A stretch of DNA of 64,000 nt from Ectocarpus siliculosus. Its lineage: Eukaryota > Sar > Phaeophyceae > Ectocarpales > Ectocarpaceae. The stretch lies in the NCBI GenBank assembly GCA_000310025.1, contig FN649735.1, forward strand, positions 1,550,222 through 1,614,221, in the 5' to 3' direction. The notes under the pieces are model-generated. The model was not told where the DNA came from and did not search any database. It was given only the letters and a program-made list of their open reading frames with translations. Shown here in pieces: positions 18,366 through 52,966 of this stretch. The position numbers and the translations under genes were made by a program. The stretch's first letter is position 1, and each line of letters opens with the position of its first letter.

Positions 18366-18460
<95 letters not shown>

Positions 18461-20862: not shown

Positions 20863-23800
20863 ATGGTGCTTACTTCTTCGCTTAAGGTGATGGGTATGGC
20901 GGGCCTCCTCGCCGCCGCCAACCTCGCGACCCCGGCTAACGCCTTCGACGGTGAGTAGAAACACGGGGTGGATGTTGTCGGTTCCCCGCGGTCCCGTTTC
21001 TGTCGTAACGCCTCTCCTTGGAATACTTGTTTCACGATCGTACTTTGCGTCGCCGGTGTGTTTCTTTGTGCGTACAGCGTGATTATCAGAAAGACCCCTA
21101 CAAATCTTGAATTCCGCCCCCCCTTCCTCCTCGTGAGTAGGTTCCACCCTATGGTGGAATTGCAATAGGTCAACTGCAGGAGTGTCGTGCTTGGGTGGGC
21201 GACGAACGACTGTGTTGCTCGACCGGTGTTGACGTGTTGAATCCTCGTGGTCCTTAGACACGACCCTCTGTGCCCCCCGCTTGACATTTGCTTGCTGTGC
21301 GTTGTGATAGCTCGTGTGCAGTAATTACGTAGTTTTGTCGAGAGCACGGCGGCAGCATTCGTGCGGTTTCATGCGGAGAAAAAATAATGCAAAGAGTAGC
21401 ACTTGCCCCACTGGGAGTCGAGTATTACTTTCCTATTGGTGCTTGTTGCTGCTGGGTGACGTTTTCGGTTGAGTATCCTTGGGAAATGTTGTATACAGAT
21501 ATTATTTAACCTGTAGCTTGCTTTTTGGGGACGGAAAGGTGCCGCTGATCGAGAGCTTGACTCATCCAACGAATCCCACGATATTTCTGCGCTTCCCCTA
21601 TCGCTCTCGGCTGTTGGTGCTACCATTCTTTTCTCTCGCTCGTTCTCTCAGGGCGCAAGGGTCTGCGGGGGCACCGCAGTCTGCAACGTAAGTACCCTAA
21701 GACCAAGTGGCCCCGTGAATGCAGCTGTTTACATTCATTTCCTCAGCAGAAGGCGTTCTTTACAGCAGCGCTTTCTTGTTTGGCTGGTATTGTCGCGAGG
21801 ACGGTTAATTTCCGCGATCGACTCGTTGTGGAATGGTAACAGTGGTACGCAGCCCCGTTTGAGCCGTGACGGCAGCGGGCGAGAGATCGATGTAACCGCT
21901 CCCCCGTCCCGGCAGCAGTGTTTCTTCGTGTCGCCCACCATGTCTGCGTAGACGGTCTCACATATTATCGCGGCATTCTTCGTAAGGCGCACCAGCAACC
22001 TCCTGCGTTCGACTCGTGTCGTCAACTGTTTGCGCGTTTGCGGCGCCGAGGCAAGTGGCGTCCCCGCAAACACATGGAACGTCTCGTCTACTTGTTGGAG
22101 AACAGGCAACCGTGCTGAATATCCCGCCCCGTCCCTCTCTCCCCGTTTGGGTCCTGCCTTCCACCAGAGGTTTGCAGCAACAGCATGAACGGCATCGAAG
22201 GCATCAACGAGAACGGCGTCGTCTGTTGCACCGCTGAGTGCGGCCAGTGCGGTGGGGAGGGCTGCGGGTCCGTGCCGGGCTTGGACAACACCAACTGCTG
22301 CATCAACGGCGTCCTGAACAACCAGGAACTTTGCTCCGTCGCCGGCGCCGCCCCTTGCGTGATCGACAGCGGCGACGGTAAGTATTTTCGCGGTGTTCTT
22401 TTTTTCTGCTCCGGAGCATTTTCGTGCCGAACGGCCTCCGCCGTTGACCGAAGTCTTTTTTTGCCCTGATTTTTACGCCCAACCCATGATTTTTTATTGT
22501 TCCGGGGTGACTGCAGCCGATATCCTCTTCGCCTCGCTCCCGCCTGTTCGTTGTTTGTTGTGCAGGTGTCACCGGCCCAACCCCGGTCGCCGCCACTACC
22601 CCGGCTCCCGTGGGAGGTGACCTCTTATTTTGCCGTTCTTGCCTCGCAATTTGACTGAGCCGACTTGTGCGTAGACTCGTGACACCACCAAAACTTGGAG
22701 CGAACGAACAGCAGAAGGACGGCCTATTTTTCTGGTTGTCGGGTCTTGGTCGTTGTACCTGTTGTGGTCAGTTGTTCCCACTCCTAACCTAAGCCCAGGC
22801 CACGTGTACACCTATACCTACCTCGAAAGTAGCATCTGTAGTTTCTGTCGGACAACCACGCCCCCAAAGCTCGCAGCGAACAACCAAGCAAGCACCACGT
22901 TCTTCGCCGTCCTGTGTGTGTTGGTCGTGCGATTGTTCCTGTCTTCCATCAGTTGCTCCTACTCCCGAGCCTGTCGCGGAAACCCCCGAGCCCACCGTTG
23001 CTGGCGGCGGAGGCACAGTTGACGCGGGTGGCGCGACGCCGTCTCCCACCGCGGCCGACGGCGACCGCGAGATCGAAATCACGCCTGCTCCCAGCGCGGC
23101 CGCTGGTGGCGGCGGCGCTACCGGCGGTGACACTACCCCGGCTCCTGCCGCTGGTGGCGGCGGCACTACCGGCGGTGACACCACCCCGGCTCCCACTGAG
23201 GTCGGCGCTGGTGGCGGTGGTGCTACGGGCGGTGACACGACCCCGGCTCCCAGTGAGGTCGGCGCTGGTGGCGGTGGCGCCACCGGCGGCGACACTACCC
23301 CGGCCCCGACTGAAGCTGGCGCTGGTGGCGGCGGCGCTACCGGCGGCGAAACCACCCCGGCTCCCAGTGAGGTCGGCGCTGGTGGCGGTGGTGCTACCGG
23401 CGGCGACACTACCCCGGCCCCCACTGAAGCTGGCGCTGGTGGCGGTGGCGCTACCGGCGGCGAAACCACCCCGGCCCCCACTGAAGCTGGCGCTGGTGGT
23501 GGCGGCACTACCGGCGGCGAAACCACCCCGGCCCCCACTGAAGCTGGCGCTGGTGGCGGCGGCGCTACCGGCGGCGAAACCACCCCGGCTCCCAGTGAGG
23601 TCGGCGCTGGTGGCGGTGGTGCCACCGGCGGCGACACTACCCCGGCCCCCACTGAAGCTGGCGCTGGTGGCGGCGGCGCTACCGGCGGCGACACCACCCC
23701 GGCTCCCAGTGAGGTCGGCGCTGGTGGCGGTGGTGCTACCGGCGGCGACACTACCCCGGCCCCCACTGAAGCTGGCGCTGGTGGCGGCGGCGCTACCGGC

Positions 23801-26800
23801 GGCGACGCCACCCCGGCTCCCAGTGAGGTCGGCGCTGGTGGCGGTGGTGCTACCGGCGGCGACACTACCCCGGCCCCCACTGAAGCGGGCGGTACCCGCG
23901 ATGCCGGCGGCGACATTACCCCCGCCCCTACTGAGGCAGGCGCCGGTGGCGGTGGCGCTACCGACGGTGACACCACCCCCGCCCCCACCGAAGCTGGCGG
24001 TGCCGCCGGTGGCGACGTTACCCCGGCTCCCACCGTGGCAGGCAGTGGCGCGGGTACCGTTGGCGGCGGTACCACCGCTCCGACTGTGACCGGCGGTGCC
24101 GACACTACCCCGGCTCCGGGAGACGTGAACGGGGACGGGCTGGTGAACTCGGCCGACACCGGCATCGAGGGCGACACCAACGGCGACGGCATCGTGGACG
24201 ACGCGGACACCGGGCTTGTCGGTGACACCAACGGTGAGTTTAGCCGATGCGCCTGGTGACGTCTGTCCCGACTTTTTGAAGGTTTTGCTGTTGGACGGCA
24301 GTGGTGGTCCGAAATGGTTACATGGTGGGCAACGAAAACGCTTTGCACGGTGGGCGTAGCCACCGATGGCGTGTACCCAGCGCCTCGAGAGGACAATCGG
24401 GCGTGAAGACAAGAATCGATCGCAGCTGTCCGAACGCGGCGAATGAGTGTACACGGGGTTTCGTTGTGGTCGTACATGCAGCACGCAGAGTTCCGCCTGT
24501 CTCCTTGGTAGGGTCATTGGTTGTTGATATCGAAGAATCTGTTTTTTGAACGCCCTCCCCTAGCGCCCGGTGCCTCAACCGCGTTACGCCTCTTGGTTAT
24601 ATCTCGTTGCAGGCGACGGCGTGGTCGACTCGTCGGACCCCATTGTCGGTGACATGAACGGAGATGGGCTGGTTAACTCCGCCGACACCGGCATCGTTGG
24701 CGACACCAACGGCGACGGAGTGGTGGATGACTTGGACACCGGGATGGTCGGTGACACCAACGGTGAGTCGTTTGTTTTGCTGATGACCAACCGTTTCTTC
24801 GGCGCTTCCTGTGCAATGAGCGCGCCGCTTCCGCAGCACTAGTCTTGTTGCTTGGTTTTCGTGCTTGGGTTTCGACTGCCTCTTCACCTTTTGCCGTACA
24901 CATGACCGTAACTCTAAAACCCTATCCCTGTTGTCCAGGTGATGGTGTTGTGGACGACTTGGACCTGGAGGACGTGAACAGGGACGGGTTCATCAACTCC
25001 GCCGACACCGGCGTCGTCGGAGACACGAACGGCGACGGCGTGGTGGACGAATTTGACACCGGGCTTGTCGGTGACACTAACGGTGAGTCCGTGCGCGTTA
25101 ACCGATGCCCTGTCATCTGGAGCATTTTTTTTTTTTTGCATACAGTGGACGGAGGTTGACACGGCAAAGTCCGTTGTAGAGAACAATCGGCATGAGATCA
25201 GCCATGTGTTTGCTTTCCTCCTGTCAACTGGACTCTCGTCCCCTCCCGACGCATACCCTGATGCGAACGCCCCCTTCGCCGTCCTGTTTCTTGCAGGCGA
25301 CGGCGTGGTGGACTCCATGGATGGACTCGTCGGGGACTTGAACGGAGACGGCCTTGTGAACTCGGCCGATACCAACATCATCGGCGACACCAACGGTGAC
25401 GGAGTGGTGGACGACGAGGACACCGGGCTTGTCGGCGACACCAACGGTGAGTACATCTTGGTTGCCGCCGCTACCGCTTGCTCCCGTGGTAGATACCATG
25501 CTGCCGCTGGCACTTACCTCTCAGCGAGGAAGGCACCTCGTTGGTGGCTTGACCCGGTGTTCGAATACCGTCGTACCGTCATGGTTGTCCTTACCGCCCT
25601 GCCTCATTCGCTGTATTTGTCTACTTCCAGGCGATGGCGTGGTTGACTCCCTTGACGACATTGTCGGAGACGTCAACGGAGACGGGCGGGTCAACTCCGC
25701 CGACACCAACATCATTGGAGACACGAACGGGGACGGAGTGGTGGACGACGAGGACACCGGGCTTGTCGGTGACACCAACGGTGAGTCTGTGACCGTTTTG
25801 CCGAAAACGGTTCTTCCATGGCCCGTACTTGTTCTTCTGCTGGCACTTGACACTTCAAGGGGAATACGCGGCAATTCTGTCTCGACGCCTTAGTGGTAAG
25901 CCGAAAACCTCTCCGTGTTCCCCGTATCTCTTGTTTAACTGTACAATGGCGGCTACGTTTTAAGATAGGGTCGTGACAAGTCGGGTCAAGCAAGTTTCAG
26001 TTTTGCGAATCGGCACCTTTTCTTAAATAGTCTCTCTTGAACCGTAGCCGCTATTGTGCTGGTTACGAACACGGCGATGGTAACCCGAACACCCTTTCTC
26101 ATTCCCTTACCTCGAAAAATCCTCTTTAAACAAGGCGACGGTGTGGTGGACGACCAGGACGTGGAGGTTGGAGACGTTAACGGAGACGGTATCATCAACT
26201 CGGCCGACACTAACATCGTTGGAGACACGAACGGTGACGGGGTTGTCGACGACGAGGACACCGGGCTTGTCGGCGACACCAACGGTACGCCGGTGGTGAT
26301 CGGTTGCCGCTAATTTGTTTTGTTGGCCGGTATGAAATCAAGACAAAAAAGTATTTATCTATGTCCTGTACAATGCCGCTACCCCTATTGAACAATATTC
26401 TTGCCAAAGGAAGGCAAAGTGATTTATCCAGACACAGTAGATGCTTGTAGTCGCGTTTCAGACAGGGCATAGGCGCAGATTTTGCGTTGGGTTTCACGGA
26501 AAATGTCACCACGGCCCTGTAAATCTCAACACTGCGTGTCCCGGCAGTTCCCGCGAGCTCCTTTCATAACATCTGAACCCGCCTGCATCATCTGTTCTAC
26601 CTACCCCAGGCGACGGTGTGGTGGACTCCCTGGACGAAATTGTCGGGGACTTGAACGGAGACGGGCTTGTCAACTCCGCCGACACCGGCATCGTTGGCGA
26701 CACCAACGGTGACGGAGTTGTTGACGACCTCGACACCGGGCTTGTCGGTGACACCAACGGTAAGTCGGTGGTTATCGTTTGCCGCTAACTGTGTTGGGTG

Positions 26801-29800
26801 ATCGATACACTACAGGCATACATGCTCCACTTGTCTTGATCATGATTGACTGTCGAACATGACCGCTGTACCCCCCCCCTCGTTGTGTCGCTGTACCCCT
26901 TCCAGGCGACGGTGTGGTTGACTCCCTGGACGAGATCGTCGGAGACATGAACGGCGACGGACTCGTCAACTCCGCCGACACCGGCATCGTTGGAGACACC
27001 AACGGTGACGGAGTGGTGGACGATCTGGACACCGGGCTTGTCGGTGACACTAACGGTAAGTCGTTTTTCTGTTCACCGCTTCTGAGCCGCAATAGTAGTA
27101 TGCCCAGCCAAAGGTGGATAAGAAACCTGCGTGCGTGAATGTTCGTGGTGGTTTAGTCGGAACGTATTCCGAGGTCCCTATATTTTATCTGAACCCGCCC
27201 TCTCCGCCACTTTAGGCGACGGTGCGGTGGACTCCCTGGACGAGATCGTCGGAGACATGAACGGCGACGGACTTGTCAACTCCGCCGACACCGGCATCGT
27301 TGGCGACACCAACGGTGACGGTGTGGTGGACGAGGAGGACACCGGGCTTATCGGTGACACCAACGGTGAGTCGTTCTTCTGTTCGCCGCTGCCGTTGCTG
27401 CCAGCCTTAGCATGCCAAGCGGATACGGGTATGAGTGAGTGATAATCCGCGTGGTTTTGTCGGAAAGTATGTCGAGGTACTTCTCGTTGTACGTGAACCC
27501 GCCCGACCTGCCGTCCTCGTCCCTGCTTCTCCAGGCGACGGTGTGGTGGACTCCCTGGACGAGCTCGTGGCAGACACCAACGGAGACGGACTGGTCAACT
27601 CCGCAGACACGAACATCGTCGGAGACACCAACGGGGACGGAGTTGTGGACGACGAGGACACCGGGCTTGTCGGTGACACCAACGGTGAGTGGTGACGGGT
27701 CGTCTCCGAAACCAGCTTGTTAGCTTGTCAGGTACACAAATTTAGATTTCGGCAGGGCCTGTCTAGGAGCTCTAATTAACTTTGTCGTTGTCCGCTTGGC
27801 GACCCGCGTGAAGTGTCGCAGCAAAAAATATCGTGACTATTTTGAAGCCTCCACGTTGTAATTCTTGACCGCTGCTGTCCCTTCCAGGCGACGGTGTGGT
27901 TGACTCCCTGGACGAGATTGTCGGAGACATGAACGGAGACGGATTGGTCAACTCCGCAGACACGAACATCGTCGGAGACACCAACGGCGACGGAGTTGTG
28001 GACGACGAGGACACCGGGCTTGTGGGTGACACTAACGGTAAGTCGTAGGGGTTAGTTTTGCCGCTCTACCTCTGCGGTAAGCATGCGGTCAACAAGGGCA
28101 ATGATAAGAACAATGGACGAATGTTTGCGGTAGCGATTATTGAGCATTCAACAGCAGAGTCTTTCGCTAGTTGTATGGAATATCTTGTAGACTACTAAAT
28201 ATGACCTCCGATCACAAGTACCTCCTTCGCTGCTCTGCTGTCCCTTGCAGGTGATGGTGTGGTGGACTCCCTGGACGAGATGGTCGGAGACATCAACGGA
28301 GACGGACTGGTAAACTCCGCAGACACGAATATTGTTGGAGACACCAACGGCGACGGAGTTGTGGACGACGAGGACACCGGGCTTGTCGGTGACACCAACG
28401 GTGAGCCGTGGGTGTGCTTATGTTTGCCGCGACAGCTGTTGCCGTAACACGTGTTCAGTTGCATTGTTGCCACCTCCACTGCTAGATATGAACTACAGGG
28501 ATAACCCTTGGCGAGTGTCCCAAGCTGACGTCGAGCTCCTTGATGGTTGTTCGACAAGTTGACCTCATTCACTGCTCTGCTGTCCCTTCCAGGCGACGGT
28601 GTGGTGGACTCCCTGGACGAGATGGTCGGGGACATGAACGGAGACGGGCTTGTCAACTCCGCCGACACCGGCATCGTTGGCGACACCAACGGCGACGGAG
28701 TGGTGGACGACGAGGACACCGGGCTTGTCGGTGACACCAACGGTGAGTCGTATGTTTTGCTGATCACCGCTTCTTCGGCGCTCCTTGTGCAATGAGCATG
28801 CCGCTTCCGCAGCTTTCGTCTTGTGGTTGGTTTTTCGATCTTGGGTTCCGACTGCCCCTCCACCTTACCGTACATCTGATCATTACCCTAACCCCAAACC
28901 CTGTTGTCCAGGTGACGGGGTTGTGGACGACTTGGACCTGCAAGACGTTAACGGGGACGGGTTCATCAACTCCGCCGACACCGGCATCGTCGGAGACACG
29001 AACGGCGACGGAGTTGTGGACGACCTGGACACAGGGCTTGTCGGTGACACCAACGGTAAGTCGGTCTTTGTTTTTTCGCTTCACATCTTTCGATGACGTT
29101 TTGTCAGGTGGACATTTGGTAAGAGCAAACTCGCGCTGGCTTGTTTGATTAGAGCTGATTCTATCCTTGCCCCTCCGTTGGCGATGCAGGGCCTACGGTA
29201 AAGTGCTAGGAGTCAAGCAAGACGTACTTGTGTCCCTTACCCCCCTCCAAGAATCAGAGAGTTGCTGGCCTTTTTGCTTTATCTTGAAGGTCATCCGGCA
29301 CAGCCACCTCCCGGGTTTGTTGCTCCCCTTGCCTGATTTCAACACCCGCCTTTGGTGATGCGCTAGCCTAGCCCGGATAAAAACTGCAGCTCCTTCCCGG
29401 CTTTGAAGGGATGCGCGGTCGGTCAATGGTCTAACGACTACGTCATGCACGGCTGTGAGTATAAGGAGCCCCTCACCCCCCCCACCCCCTCTCATCTTGC
29501 GTCCCCCCTACAGGCGACGGCGTGGTGGATTCCACGGACGAGGTCGTCGGAGCTACCCCTGCCCCGAGCGCCAGCATCGACGGCTCTCGCGGCATCGACG
29601 GCGGTCGCACCCTCTCCCCCGCTGCAGAGTTTGGCGACACTCTCTCCCCCACCTCCGCCCCGACCACCGCCGCGGAGGCTCTGGACAGCTCGGCCGCCCC
29701 GACGTCAGCGGTGGACGCGAGCGAGGAGTGCCCCGAGGGGATGGTGCCGAACGAGAGCACCTCGACTAACCTGCGGTGTGTTAGCGGCGCGGCGGGTTTG

Positions 29801-29887
29801 TTCTCCGGCGGCCGCGCGTACTCCGGCGTGGTGTACGCGGGCGTTCTGGGCCTCGCACTCGCCGCCGGCGGCGCGCTTGTTCTGTGA
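20863..29887 (+). CDS. Secreted multi-domain protein: Cys module, Thr/Pro/Gly repeat stalk, 42 dockerin/TSP3-type calcium loops, C-terminal hydrophobic tail (19 exons)
   Basis: Exons: 20863-20950, 21652-21687, 22168-22377, 22566-22616, 22953-24233, 24613-24762, 24939-25082, 25297-25446, 25631-25780, 26135-26284, 26610-26759, 26906-27055, 27216-27365, 27535-27684, 27888-28037, 28251-28400, 28593-28742, 28912-29055, 29514-29887. Every intron is GT-AG and phase 1; the coding sum is 3978 bases, 1325 residues. The ATG sits in ACCATGG. Order of parts: signal peptide (MVLTSSLKVMGMAGLLAAAN), 10-Cys module in exon 3, 19-residue repeat stalk in exon 5, calcium loops D-x-N-x-D-G-x-x-N/D-x-x-D every 16-17 residues, a second Thr/Pro/Ser-rich stretch, the motif CPEGMVPNESTSTNLRC and a final hydrophobic segment (VVYAGVLGLALAAGGALVL). 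Loop spacing is shorter than an EF-hand pair and resembles dockerin or thrombospondin-3 arrays. It is probably a calcium-binding cell-surface or matrix protein; the function is inferred. Exon 2 is the least certain. Confidence 0.85.
22168..22377 (+). other. Exon 3 of the large gene: 10-Cys extracellular module
   Basis: The exon encodes about 70 residues with ten cysteines in the pattern VC...VVCC-x3-C-x2-CGGEGC...NCC...LC...PC. A CC...CG-x-CGG-x-GC...NCC spacing recurs in secreted proteins of stramenopiles as I recall them, but no named family is asserted. All cysteines lie outside the repeat stalk and probably form disulfides. The exon is symmetric (phase 1 to phase 1), so it could be shuffled as a unit. 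Confidence 0.65.
23095..24045 (+). repeat. 57-base coding minisatellite (19-residue Thr/Pro/Gly stalk) in exon 5
   Basis: About 15 tandem units of the 19-residue sequence GGGGATGGDTTPAPTEAGA. Two alternating variants, PTEAG and PSEVG, and D/E exchange before TTPAP define subfamilies. The last three units are shorter or diverged. The repeat is so GC-rich that two other frames are also open across it. Pro/Thr/Ser density suggests heavy O-glycosylation, i.e. an extended stalk. Confidence 0.85.
24613..29055 (+). repeat. Array of 13 symmetric calcium-loop exons
   Basis: Eleven exons are 150 bases and two (24939-25082, 28912-29055) are 144 bases. Each encodes the second half of one calcium loop, two full loops and the first half of the next. 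Every intron interrupts the glycine codon inside a loop (DTNG split after the first G base), so loops are completed only by splicing. Variants include DTGIVGD versus DTNIVGD and DDLD versus DDED. Introns are 146 to 379 bases within the array (458 for the last). Neighbouring introns retain similarity, showing that exon plus intron units were duplicated. Confidence 0.85.
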
Positions 29888-29916
29888 TAAGGACAGGGAT
29901 GTTGTGCGACCGGAAC

Positions 29917-30045
29917 AAGATGTTCTTTATCGGAATGAACAAGAAGTTCTTTATCGGAATGAACAAGATGTTCTTTATTGGAATGAACAAGATGTTCGGC
30001 AAGGAACAAGATGTCCCGTATTCGGAACACTTGCAAGATGTTCTG
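29917..30045 (+). repeat. 24-base tandem repeat downstream of the large gene
   Basis: About five units related to GGAATGAACAAGATGTTCTT, the first three nearly perfect and the later ones decayed. It starts about 30 bases after the stop codon and so probably lies in the 3' untranslated region. Confidence 0.75.
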
Positions 30046-51352: not shown

Positions 51353-52966
51353 ATGCAGAGATCTTTTGATGTGGGTTTTGTATTTTGTCAGGCTTGCCGC
51401 GCCGACACCAAGAACCGCAGCACCTTGCCAACACAGGCCCCAATTTTCGGCTTGCCCCGCATTTCGGCAGGCTCTAGCAGGTGCTTGGACGCTTTCGTTG
51501 TCGCCCTCAACGAAACCTGCCACGAGGGAAAATGCATCATGTCGACCACGGCGCTCCAGCTCGCGTCGCTGCAGTTCTGCGTGGCTTGCCGAAGTGCATC
51601 GACCGTTCGCCTCAGGATCGACACGGACACACCTAGACACTTGTGGGCCAAGGATTCTGGACCTCAGGCTCGACGCAGCGCGAGGGTTTGCCGTGCGTCT
51701 CGCGTGCCGGCCCTGCACGCGCGGGAGGTGCTGTGGATTCTACCAGCTTCGATGCTGAACGCCACGAGTGATTCTCTTAAACTGTCGAACTTGCAGCTCC
51801 TCAGCTTCGTCGGTGCCAACTTCAACGATAGCTTGAGCGGTGTGGCACTGCCGCGTGGCCTAAAGGGGATCATCATCGGTGGAAGGTTTAACCGCTCTGT
51901 GGAGAACGTGGCGTGGCCTTCATCGCTCCTCCAGCTGACCTTTGGCTATGAGTTCAACCAGCCAATTGACAACGTCACTTGGCCAAAGTCTCTGATGCAG
52001 TTGACCTTCGGCAACAGGTTTAACCGACCGCTTTCTTCGGTAAACTGGCCGGCATCTCTGCAGCAGGTGGCACTCGGCGACCACTTCGACCAACCGCTCC
52101 ACGGTGTTTCGTGGCCGCCAGATTTGCGCGTCTTGAGCTTCGGCCTCCTGTTTAACCACAGAGTCGACGCTGTGGCGTGGCCGACCTCTCTCCAGGAATT
52201 AGCCTTCGGGTGGTCATTCGATCATTCGGTTGACGAGGCAAAGTGGCCAGCTTCATTGCAGAAACTCTCCTTCGGCGGTGGTTTCAACAAGGGGCTTGAC
52301 AGAATGGTATGGCCGGCTTCGCTCCAGCAGCTCGTCACCGGCAGCGGCTTCGACCAGCAAATCGATCAAATTACGTGGCCGCTATCGGTGAAAGTGATTG
52401 TACTCGGGTCCAAATTCAATAGGTGCATCGACCGCGTTAGCTTCCCAACATTCTTGGAGGAACTAACATTTGGCCAACACTTCGACCAGGCACTCAACAG
52501 GGTAAAGTGGCCGTCATCGCTACAGCAACTCACCCTAGGGTGGAACTTCAACCAAGGTCTCCTCGCGGTGGTATGGCCCGTGGCCCTGAAGAAGTTGGTG
52601 CTAGGCGGTCGCTTCAACCAGCCCATCGCCGGCGTGCGGTGGCCCCCTTCTCTCCAGGAGCTGGTTTTCAGCCACATGTTCAACCAACCCGTCGACGTCC
52701 GTGCAGCTTGGCCTGCATCGTTGCGCAAGCTGACGTTTGGCCAAGACTTCAGCAAATCCATCCACGGCGTAGCCTGGCCCAAGTCATTGCAGTATCTGAG
52801 GTTCGGCCAAGCTTTCCCGATTCCAGCGGGCGACTTTTCGTGGCCTGCCTCTCTACGGCAGCTGACGTTCGTTTGCTACTCTGACGATGTGCTGCCGGCA
52901 GTGCCGGGCGTGGAGGTGTGCAGGGTGCAGCCTCGTGTTGGCCGTTGGCCTCTCTACGGCGGCTGA
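51353..52966 (+). CDS. FNIP-like repeat protein (16 repeats)
   Basis: Open frame of 537 codons from ATG 51353 to the stop at 52966. From about residue 140 to the end there are 16 consecutive repeats of about 23 residues with the core LxxLxFGxxFNQPIDxVxWPxSL, for example GYEFNQPIDNVTWPKSL and GDHFDQPLHGVSWPPDL. This is the FNIP-type repeat pattern, known as an expanded family in slime moulds and seen in brown algae. It forms a leucine-rich-repeat-like solenoid, generally taken to bind proteins. The first 130 residues are of uncertain coding status: TTTTGTCAG at 51382-51390 could be a splice acceptor, in which case the real start is in an upstream exon. The last residues are altered by a tandem duplication. 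No signal peptide or membrane segment. Confidence 0.75.
   Translation: MQRSFDVGFVFCQACRADTKNRSTLPTQAPIFGLPRISAGSSRCLDAFVVALNETCHEGKCIMSTTALQLASLQFCVACRSASTVRLRIDTDTPRHLWAKDSGPQARRSARVCRASRVPALHAREVLWILPASMLNATSDSLKLSNLQLLSFVGANFNDSLSGVALPRGLKGIIIGGRFNRSVENVAWPSSLLQLTFGYEFNQPIDNVTWPKSLMQLTFGNRFNRPLSSVNWPASLQQVALGDHFDQPLHGVSWPPDLRVLSFGLLFNHRVDAVAWPTSLQELAFGWSFDHSVDEAKWPASLQKLSFGGGFNKGLDRMVWPASLQQLVTGSGFDQQIDQITWPLSVKVIVLGSKFNRCIDRVSFPTFLEELTFGQHFDQALNRVKWPSSLQQLTLGWNFNQGLLAVVWPVALKKLVLGGRFNQPIAGVRWPPSLQELVFSHMFNQPVDVRAAWPASLRKLTFGQDFSKSIHGVAWPKSLQYLRFGQAFPIPAGDFSWPASLRQLTFVCYSDDVLPAVPGVEVCRVQPRVGRWPLYGG

Follow-up and report, generated by a model that had tools for sequence, protein, structure and literature searches.

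A brown algal gene with 42 dockerin-like calcium loops in an array of symmetric phase-1 exons, encoding a probably secreted protein

The subject of this study is a gene of the brown alga Ectocarpus siliculosus which encodes a protein with a long row of putative calcium-binding loops. It lies in a stretch of 64,000 nucleotides (nt) of contig FN649735.1 (positions 1,550,222 to 1,614,221), in the following called the window; coordinates are window positions unless another contig is named, and the genome searched comprises 189 Mb in 492 contigs. On contig C15 of this genome, an exon of a type III polyketide synthase matches PDB 4B0N, named in PMC6274091 as the enzyme of Ectocarpus siliculosus, with 89 of 89 residues identical, which identifies the genome as Ectocarpus or a very close relative. 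Assembled by sequence reading, the gene extends from 20863 to 29887 (+) and consists of 19 exons, which together encode 1325 amino acids (aa) without internal stop. The predicted splice sites of all 18 introns have GT..AG borders, and all 18 introns are in phase 1. Thirteen exons located between 24613 and 29055 form the loop array. They are class 1-1 modules, which means that 3n bases stand between phase-1 introns, and this holds without exception (18/18 introns, 13/13 array exons), as an earlier note on the window (the original prediction) had claimed for the array.

The strict loop pattern D.[ND].DG..[DN]..D, which by itself requires Asp at position 12, is matched exactly 42 times from residue 519 into exon 19, and 42 is also the number that had been predicted. 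The loops start 16 or 17 residues apart, with about 5 residues between successive loops; this agrees with the spacing noted earlier, except that it is 14 twice, at exons 7 and 18. These two exons have 144 nt and the other 11 have 150 nt, again in line with the prediction. Each array exon contains two whole loops and two part-loops, and the kinds of loop follow each other in constant order: A, which is cut by the intron (GDTN/GDGVVDSLDEIV, intron at the slash), B (GDMNGDGLVNSADTGIV) and C (GDTNGDGVVDDEDTGLV). The Gly codon at loop position 4 is split by all 14 array introns (24234-29513). This had been recognized before, without mention of the four additional phase-1 introns upstream. Since every array intron splits the same loop Gly, any array exon can be joined to any other in frame. 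Among the 28 unsplit loops one has Arg at position 4, and in five the Gly codon at this position is GGT, so there is no clear avoidance of cryptic donors. The array exons end with AACG and not with AG. A 700-residue stretch of the array contains 170 Asp, no Lys and 2 Arg, resulting in a net charge of -189, and the array is free of Cys.

The remaining parts of the protein are listed in Table 1. Its signal peptide and hydrophobic C-terminus were already part of the original prediction and were seen by us too, by eye, while neither the Cys-rich domain nor the linker with its 57-nt repeat nor the paralog described below had been mentioned. The linker (residues 106-517, 412 in total), most of which is encoded by exon 5, contains 129 Gly, 78 Thr, 77 Ala and 50 Pro, and the dipeptides TP, AP and SP occur 47 times in it. 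The C-terminus lacks a cytoplasmic tail and by eye resembles a glycosylphosphatidylinositol (GPI) signal; no Pfam row was obtained for the last 53 residues.

Table 1. Features of the calcium-loop gene, in window positions
Feature	Position	Strand	Remark
Exon 1: start codon and signal peptide (MVLTSSLKVMGMAGLLAAANLATPANAFD), then phase-1 intron	20863..20950	+	signal peptide by eye
Exon 2, 36 nt, class 1-1	21652..21687	+	
Exon 3, 210 nt, class 1-1: Cys-rich domain, large family in genome	22168..22377	+	
Exon 4, 51 nt, class 1-1, Pro/Thr-rich	22566..22616	+	
Exon 5: Gly/Thr/Ala/Pro linker, two whole loops and start of third	22953..24233	+	
57-nt tandem repeat in exon 5, 15.3 copies, in frame; units GGGATGGDTTPAPTEAGA-like	23149..24014	+	
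First Gly-splitting phase-1 intron of 14	24234..24612	+	last is 29056-29513
Array exon 6, 150 nt	24613..24762	+	
Array exon 7, 144 nt, 14-residue spacing	24939..25082	+	
Array exon 8, 150 nt	25297..25446	+	
Array exon 9, 150 nt	25631..25780	+	
Array exon 10, 150 nt	26135..26284	+	
Array exon 11, 150 nt	26610..26759	+	
Array exon 12, 150 nt, structure modelled	26906..27055	+	
Array exon 13, 150 nt	27216..27365	+	
Array exon 14, 150 nt	27535..27684	+	
Array exon 15, 150 nt	27888..28037	+	
Array exon 16, 150 nt	28251..28400	+	
Array exon 17, 150 nt	28593..28742	+	
Array exon 18, 144 nt	28912..29055	+	
Exon 19: end of last loop, Ser/Thr/Pro-rich stem, GPI-like tail (FSGGRAYSGVVYAGVLGLALAAGGALVL), stop	29514..29887	+	GPI signal by eye

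Comparison of the array exons points to constraint at the protein level. The eleven 150-nt exons show a mutual identity of 74-94%, and in alignment columns 2-50 there are 16, 10 and 38 variable nucleotide sites at codon positions 1, 2 and 3, respectively. Over 56 exon pairs, which are not independent of each other, the median ratio of nonsynonymous to synonymous divergence (dN/dS) was 0.157 (median dS 0.47, median dN 0.07). Loop positions 1, 3, 5, 9 and 12 were taken as ligand columns after the EF-hand-type loop of PMC3123361 (here and below, papers given by PMC number are cited for parts of their text). All 15 ligand columns are invariant in all 13 exons, compared to 18 of the 36 other columns (Fisher p = 3.6e-4). 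Further, synonymous codon changes were found in 5 of the 15 ligand columns and in 16 of the 18 other invariant columns. Because five ligand columns vary synonymously, their uniformity is not due to recent copying only. In principle, repeat arrays can persist without function, and this one could be decaying or selectively neutral. However, 13 exons without stop or frameshift, GT..AG borders at all introns, the bias of variable sites towards the third codon position and the invariant ligand columns speak against a neutral repeat, which we regard as hardly credible.

The same data bear on the idea that the exon array is an alternative-splicing device comparable to the leucine-rich repeat (LRR) exon arrays, in which the loop number would be varied or single loops would be dropped via internal G/GT donors. 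The array exons, being all 3n and phase 1-1, would be suited for this, the GGT codons in five of the 28 unsplit loops are possible in-frame donors, and the LRR exons of brown algal ROCO genes are reportedly alternatively spliced (PMC11378527). However, the array exons look protein-constrained, in contrast to the LRR exons, for which diversifying selection is described in the same paper, and a splicing device seems to us quite improbable.

Duplication of at least one exon-intron-exon block is directly visible in the locus. Introns 6 and 17, which precede exons 7 and 18, can be aligned end to end with 143 of 177 columns identical. Their neighbours match as well: exon 6 pairs with exon 17, and exon 7 with exon 18, the two that have the unusual length of 144 nt. 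Thus, a DNA block was copied together with its intron, at an offset of eleven exon positions. A weaker relation exists between introns 12 and 13 (113/181 columns, 62%), the highest value of shuffled sequences being 55% when one simple shuffle per pair is used as the null. Among the eight pairs listed, 15/16, 8/16, 8/13, 14/16, 6/8 and 6/13 reach 57-59%, which is just over this value, and local alignment backs the pairs 10/11 and 15/16 in part. The exon-unit expansion proposed earlier is supported. The additional suggestion of copy number variation between individuals describes something possible to which the sequence gives no indication: none of the units appears newly copied, since identity does not exceed 94% in any pair of 150-nt exons and 81% in any pair of introns, the latter value coming from blocks eleven exon positions apart.

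As judged from the sequence, the in-frame 57-nt repeat of exon 5 is likelier to be polymorphic than the array exons. Antisense to this repeat there are frames of 562 and 522 aa, likely by-products of the repetition. Two other repeats flank the gene, namely a CT dinucleotide run of 47.5 copies at 18366-18460, which lies about 2.4 kb before the start codon, and a 24-nt tandem repeat (29913-29997, 3.5 copies, 95% match) about 25 bases past the stop codon. Elsewhere in the window, FNIP repeats are present in a 537-aa open frame at 51353-52966 (+) (174.7 bits, 13 stretches).

A genome search with one array exon resulted in 15 matches, 14 in this gene and one at position 5464849 of another contig, C3. 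The paralog on C3 encodes, in this order, Cys-rich domains, a Pro/Thr-rich stretch, three similar loops and a GPI-like tail, and by eye a signal peptide-like start is found upstream. Some of its Cys domains are apparently split by further introns, again by eye. In each of the three loops a phase-1 intron interrupts the same Gly as in the array; two of the loops are intact and one, with the acceptor chosen for it, is short by two residues. The loop exons have 51 nt (1-1) and 216 nt (1-1) and are followed by the last exon. The 51-nt exon corresponds to one B loop and is identical to its closest array loops at 45 of 51 nt. Because the loops of the paralog are cut at the same Gly, an intron at this place in the loop probably predates the array. 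The sequences suggest that a 51-nt one-loop 1-1 exon of the C3 type is likely the ancestral unit, from which three-loop exons would have arisen; the reverse direction, or intron loss in the array gene, may be an alternative history.

All 12 matches to the donor-side pattern are in the calcium-loop gene, with none in the control, and the acceptor-side pattern gave 18 matches (6 in the control). Eleven of these are exact, ten in this gene and one in the C3 paralog. The seven with one mismatch comprise one in this gene, one on C3 and five elsewhere, on C182 (position 8462), C4, C16, C26 and C458. The C182 match was rejected as a further locus: it is a lone half-loop look-alike (GDGVVDSTAAA), and no other loop is present in the 7 kb scanned around it. 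With the matches on C4, C16, C26 and C458 left aside, the two patterns thus revealed no convincing loop locus beyond this gene and the paralog. A genome-wide acid pattern was useless as a detector, giving 72 forward and 71 reverse matches vs 81 and 67 in the control. No match was found in phage records.

Of the Pfam families, Dockerin_1 (PF00404) fits the loops best. A joined array piece of 387 residues scored 52.4 bits (cut-off 22.9), with the best stretch covering only profile positions 2-14, i.e. 13 of 57, and a single exon remained under the cut-off with 20.1 bits. Solved relatives at E values up to 0.01 are restricted to 2y3n_B, 3ul4_B, 6kg9_A and 4dh2_B, all four of which are dockerin-bearing chains. 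The array resembles type I dockerins in the loop sequence GDxNGDGxVNxxD, in its best-scoring Pfam family and in its solved relatives. In contrast, its spacing of 16-17 residues (twice 14) differs from that of about 33 in dockerins (33 in 2y3n and 3ul4, counted by eye in the alignments), it has 42 loops instead of 2, and its helices are short turns of 3-4 residues in a structure model of modest confidence. Membership in the dockerin domain was rejected on these grounds, and the best reading of the sequences is that the loops are dockerin-like without forming a dockerin domain. The Dockerin_1 match and the four solved relatives could also be taken as a sign that the loops act as dockerins and dock a cohesin-like partner, but with 13 aligned profile positions, half the loop distance and scant room for dockerin helices, such a function is very unlikely. 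Exon by exon, no Dockerin_1 match was obtained in the genome by a method that detected 2 of 14 controls and is weak for such loops.

Other calcium-loop families fit less well. Thrombospondin type 3 repeats are tandem calcium loops in extracellular protein. No TSP_3 row was obtained for the array at E up to 1, nor up to 10, where the HMMER filters remove most weak rows, and a genome-wide TSP_3 search was negative, with the controls silent too. This family was rejected for lack of a TSP_3 row and of Cys in the array. Of the two profiles for which a search had been suggested with the original prediction, dockerin type I scored over its cut-off in the joined piece, with few profile positions covered, and TSP3 gave no row. 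EF-hands were also rejected: with about 5 residues between the loops two helices lack room, position 12 is Asp, as the loop pattern demands, and not the usual Glu, and the profile scores were under their cut-offs, with 7.2 bits for EF-hand_1 on one exon (cut-off 25.4) and 19.1 bits for EF-hand_5 on three exons (E 0.0009, cut-off 25.9). The 5-fold beta-flower protein family (PF21785) scored 48.2 bits on the 387 residues (cut-off 38), 25.7 bits on three exons and 11.8 bits on one exon. This probably reflects loop composition; no strand is present in the one-exon model. NCBIfam searches found nothing. In the AlphaFold2 model of exon 12, for which the other 12 exons served as alignment, every calcium-type loop leads into a short helix of 3-4 residues, and there are no strands.

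Similar loop rows were found in bacteria. A Labilibaculum open frame has 21 Dx[DN]xDG loops, mostly 15 residues apart, and one of Beggiatoa has 53, among which the later loops follow each other mostly at 18 residues and in part at 24-26. They differ from the Ectocarpus array by a single continuous frame, by other spacing and by other flanks. Among the bacterial pattern matches listed, 7 of 16 loci lack a frame of three such loops. Convergent evolution of the calcium-loop motif is described in PMC3123361, and we infer that the bacterial arrays are likely convergent with that of Ectocarpus.

The Cys domain encoded by exon 3 belongs to a family with at least 141 matches in the genome. It had no match in Pfam with an E value up to 1 and none in NCBIfam. 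We determined the best-scoring candidate splice sites around 51 distinct matches, some of them partial and from hand-picked loci. The best-scoring donor is in phase 1 in 41 of 42 scored cases (9 of 51 had no donor by our rule), and the best-scoring acceptor is in phase 1 in 31 of 41, in phase 0 in 8 and in phase 2 in 2 (10 of 51 without acceptor). Binomial values against the rough null of 1/3 overstate the significance of these phases, because the copies are related by descent. On contig C4 (5400496-5436870), 26 matches stand in a tandem row, with distances that are often near 1 kb; the row is either one giant gene or a gene cluster, and the seven domains examined closely in it have phase-1 sites on both flanks. 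At C3:5556501-5566000, related Cys domains were found at 5562118 and 5564207, with no calcium loop in the scanned stretch. Altogether, calcium loops were absent from the five other Cys-bearing stretches that were scanned.

Judging from these phases, the loop array seems to be one element of a more extensive class 1-1 exon system, serving probably secreted proteins in Ectocarpus. At two loci, located on two contigs, loop exons are found together with Cys exons, a pair for which plain gene duplication could account. It is tempting to speculate that brown algae independently evolved a class 1-1 system of extracellular exon modules, as a parallel to the one regarded as peculiar to animals, in which the loop exon and the Cys exon are interchangeable; we put this forward as a tentative proposal of serious weight. 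Such modules could spread despite an intron inside a functional loop, given that the loop Gly codon and the splice site coincide.

We propose, with a probability of roughly 0.6, that the gene encodes a calcium-stiffened surface stalk holding the Cys-rich head out through the wall. The protein is probably secreted and GPI-anchored in the cell wall, as suggested by the candidate signal peptide and GPI signal. From the membrane outward, the order would be the GPI anchor, a short stem, a rod of about 700 residues with the 42 loops, a linker of about 400 residues, which may be flexible and perhaps O-glycosylated, and the Cys-rich head. Seawater calcium would fill the loops, offset about 190 net negative charges and stiffen the stalk; because calcium-filled loops would confer this stiffness, exon number would set the stalk length. 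The array would have grown as DNA segments that contained class 1-1 exons and their introns were duplicated, a process which the phase rule would have made easy. Secretion, anchoring, calcium filling, stiffness and the role of the head are predictions in this proposal.

The high Asp content and the net charge of the array would also suit an acidic matrix protein which organises or stores calcium and thereby seeds or tunes the calcium cross-linking of alginate, rather than a stalk that sets length. The walls of Ectocarpus are composed mostly of alginates and fucans, and calcium is used to prepare gels of alginate (PMC6736953). Further, arabinogalactan protein (AGP) epitopes and AGP-backbone genes are reported from brown algae (PMC8307928). 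However, an ordered ligand set with near-fixed spacing exceeds the needs of bulk acidity, and the order of head, linker and tail suggests a surface display protein. We thus consider an alginate-organising role rather unlikely.

Several points weigh against the surface stalk and the proposed growth of its exon array. The splice sites are read from the sequence, the protein and its calcium binding are predicted from it, and the signal peptide and GPI signal were judged by eye. The best AlphaFold2 model of exon 12 has a mean predicted local distance difference test (pLDDT) value of 64.7, the five models range from 38.5 to 64.7, and one exon is covered. Many array introns cannot be aligned beyond the level of shuffled sequence, and duplication with introns is therefore directly seen for few pairs only. 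Gene conversion between copies would reduce dN as well as dS of the exon pairs, which in addition are non-independent. In the C3 paralog, the acceptor of the middle loop exon was picked to keep the frame, and the two-residue loss depends on that choice. In summary, the observation behind the original prediction is confirmed and its interpretation is partly supported.

The calcium-loop gene is of interest for several reasons. As in animals, proteins of the cell exterior may have been assembled in seaweeds from copied exons that share one phase. Brown algae became multicellular independently, and the occurrence of the animal phase rule in a probable wall-protein family makes the question of a restriction of exon shuffling to Metazoa testable: either signal peptides and Gly-rich linkers bring about a preference for phase 1 in whatever lineage they occur, or another cause is needed. 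Moreover, the gene represents a natural series of calcium loops, in which loop number could be tied to stalk length. In a search mainly of the open literature, we found no publication that deals with this gene or with dockerin-like loops of Ectocarpus.

LRR exon arrays of brown algae were reportedly first described by Zambounis in 2012. In the ROCO genes, candidate immune GTPases, these exons have 72 nt, are in phase 2, encode one LRR each and evolve under diversifying selection, and with them exon shuffling as such has been reported from brown algae; similar arrays of tetratricopeptide repeat (TPR) exons in NB-ARC-TPR genes are cited in the same source (PMC11378527). Our own genome search for ROCO genes with COR-A gave one match with 35.5 bits (cut-off 35.3), and ROCO LRR arrays are known here from the literature. 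The two kinds of array share the lineage, tandem exons of repeat units and a single intron phase, which allows in-frame gain and loss. In contrast to the LRR exons, those described here have 150 nt, are in phase 1, carry three calcium loops each, are constrained and belong to a probably secreted protein. Phase 1 is the rule of animals, the extracellular shuffled proteins of which consist mostly of class 1-1 modules, with split Gly codons explained by AG/G proto-splice sites (PMC8001218, 2021, which asks why exon shuffling is restricted to Metazoa). The calcium-loop gene brings the algal and the animal line together. It shares with the animal proteins the symmetric phase-1 exons, the split Gly codons and the intron just after the signal peptide, but it belongs to another lineage, uses other modules, and its array exons end with AACG instead of AG.

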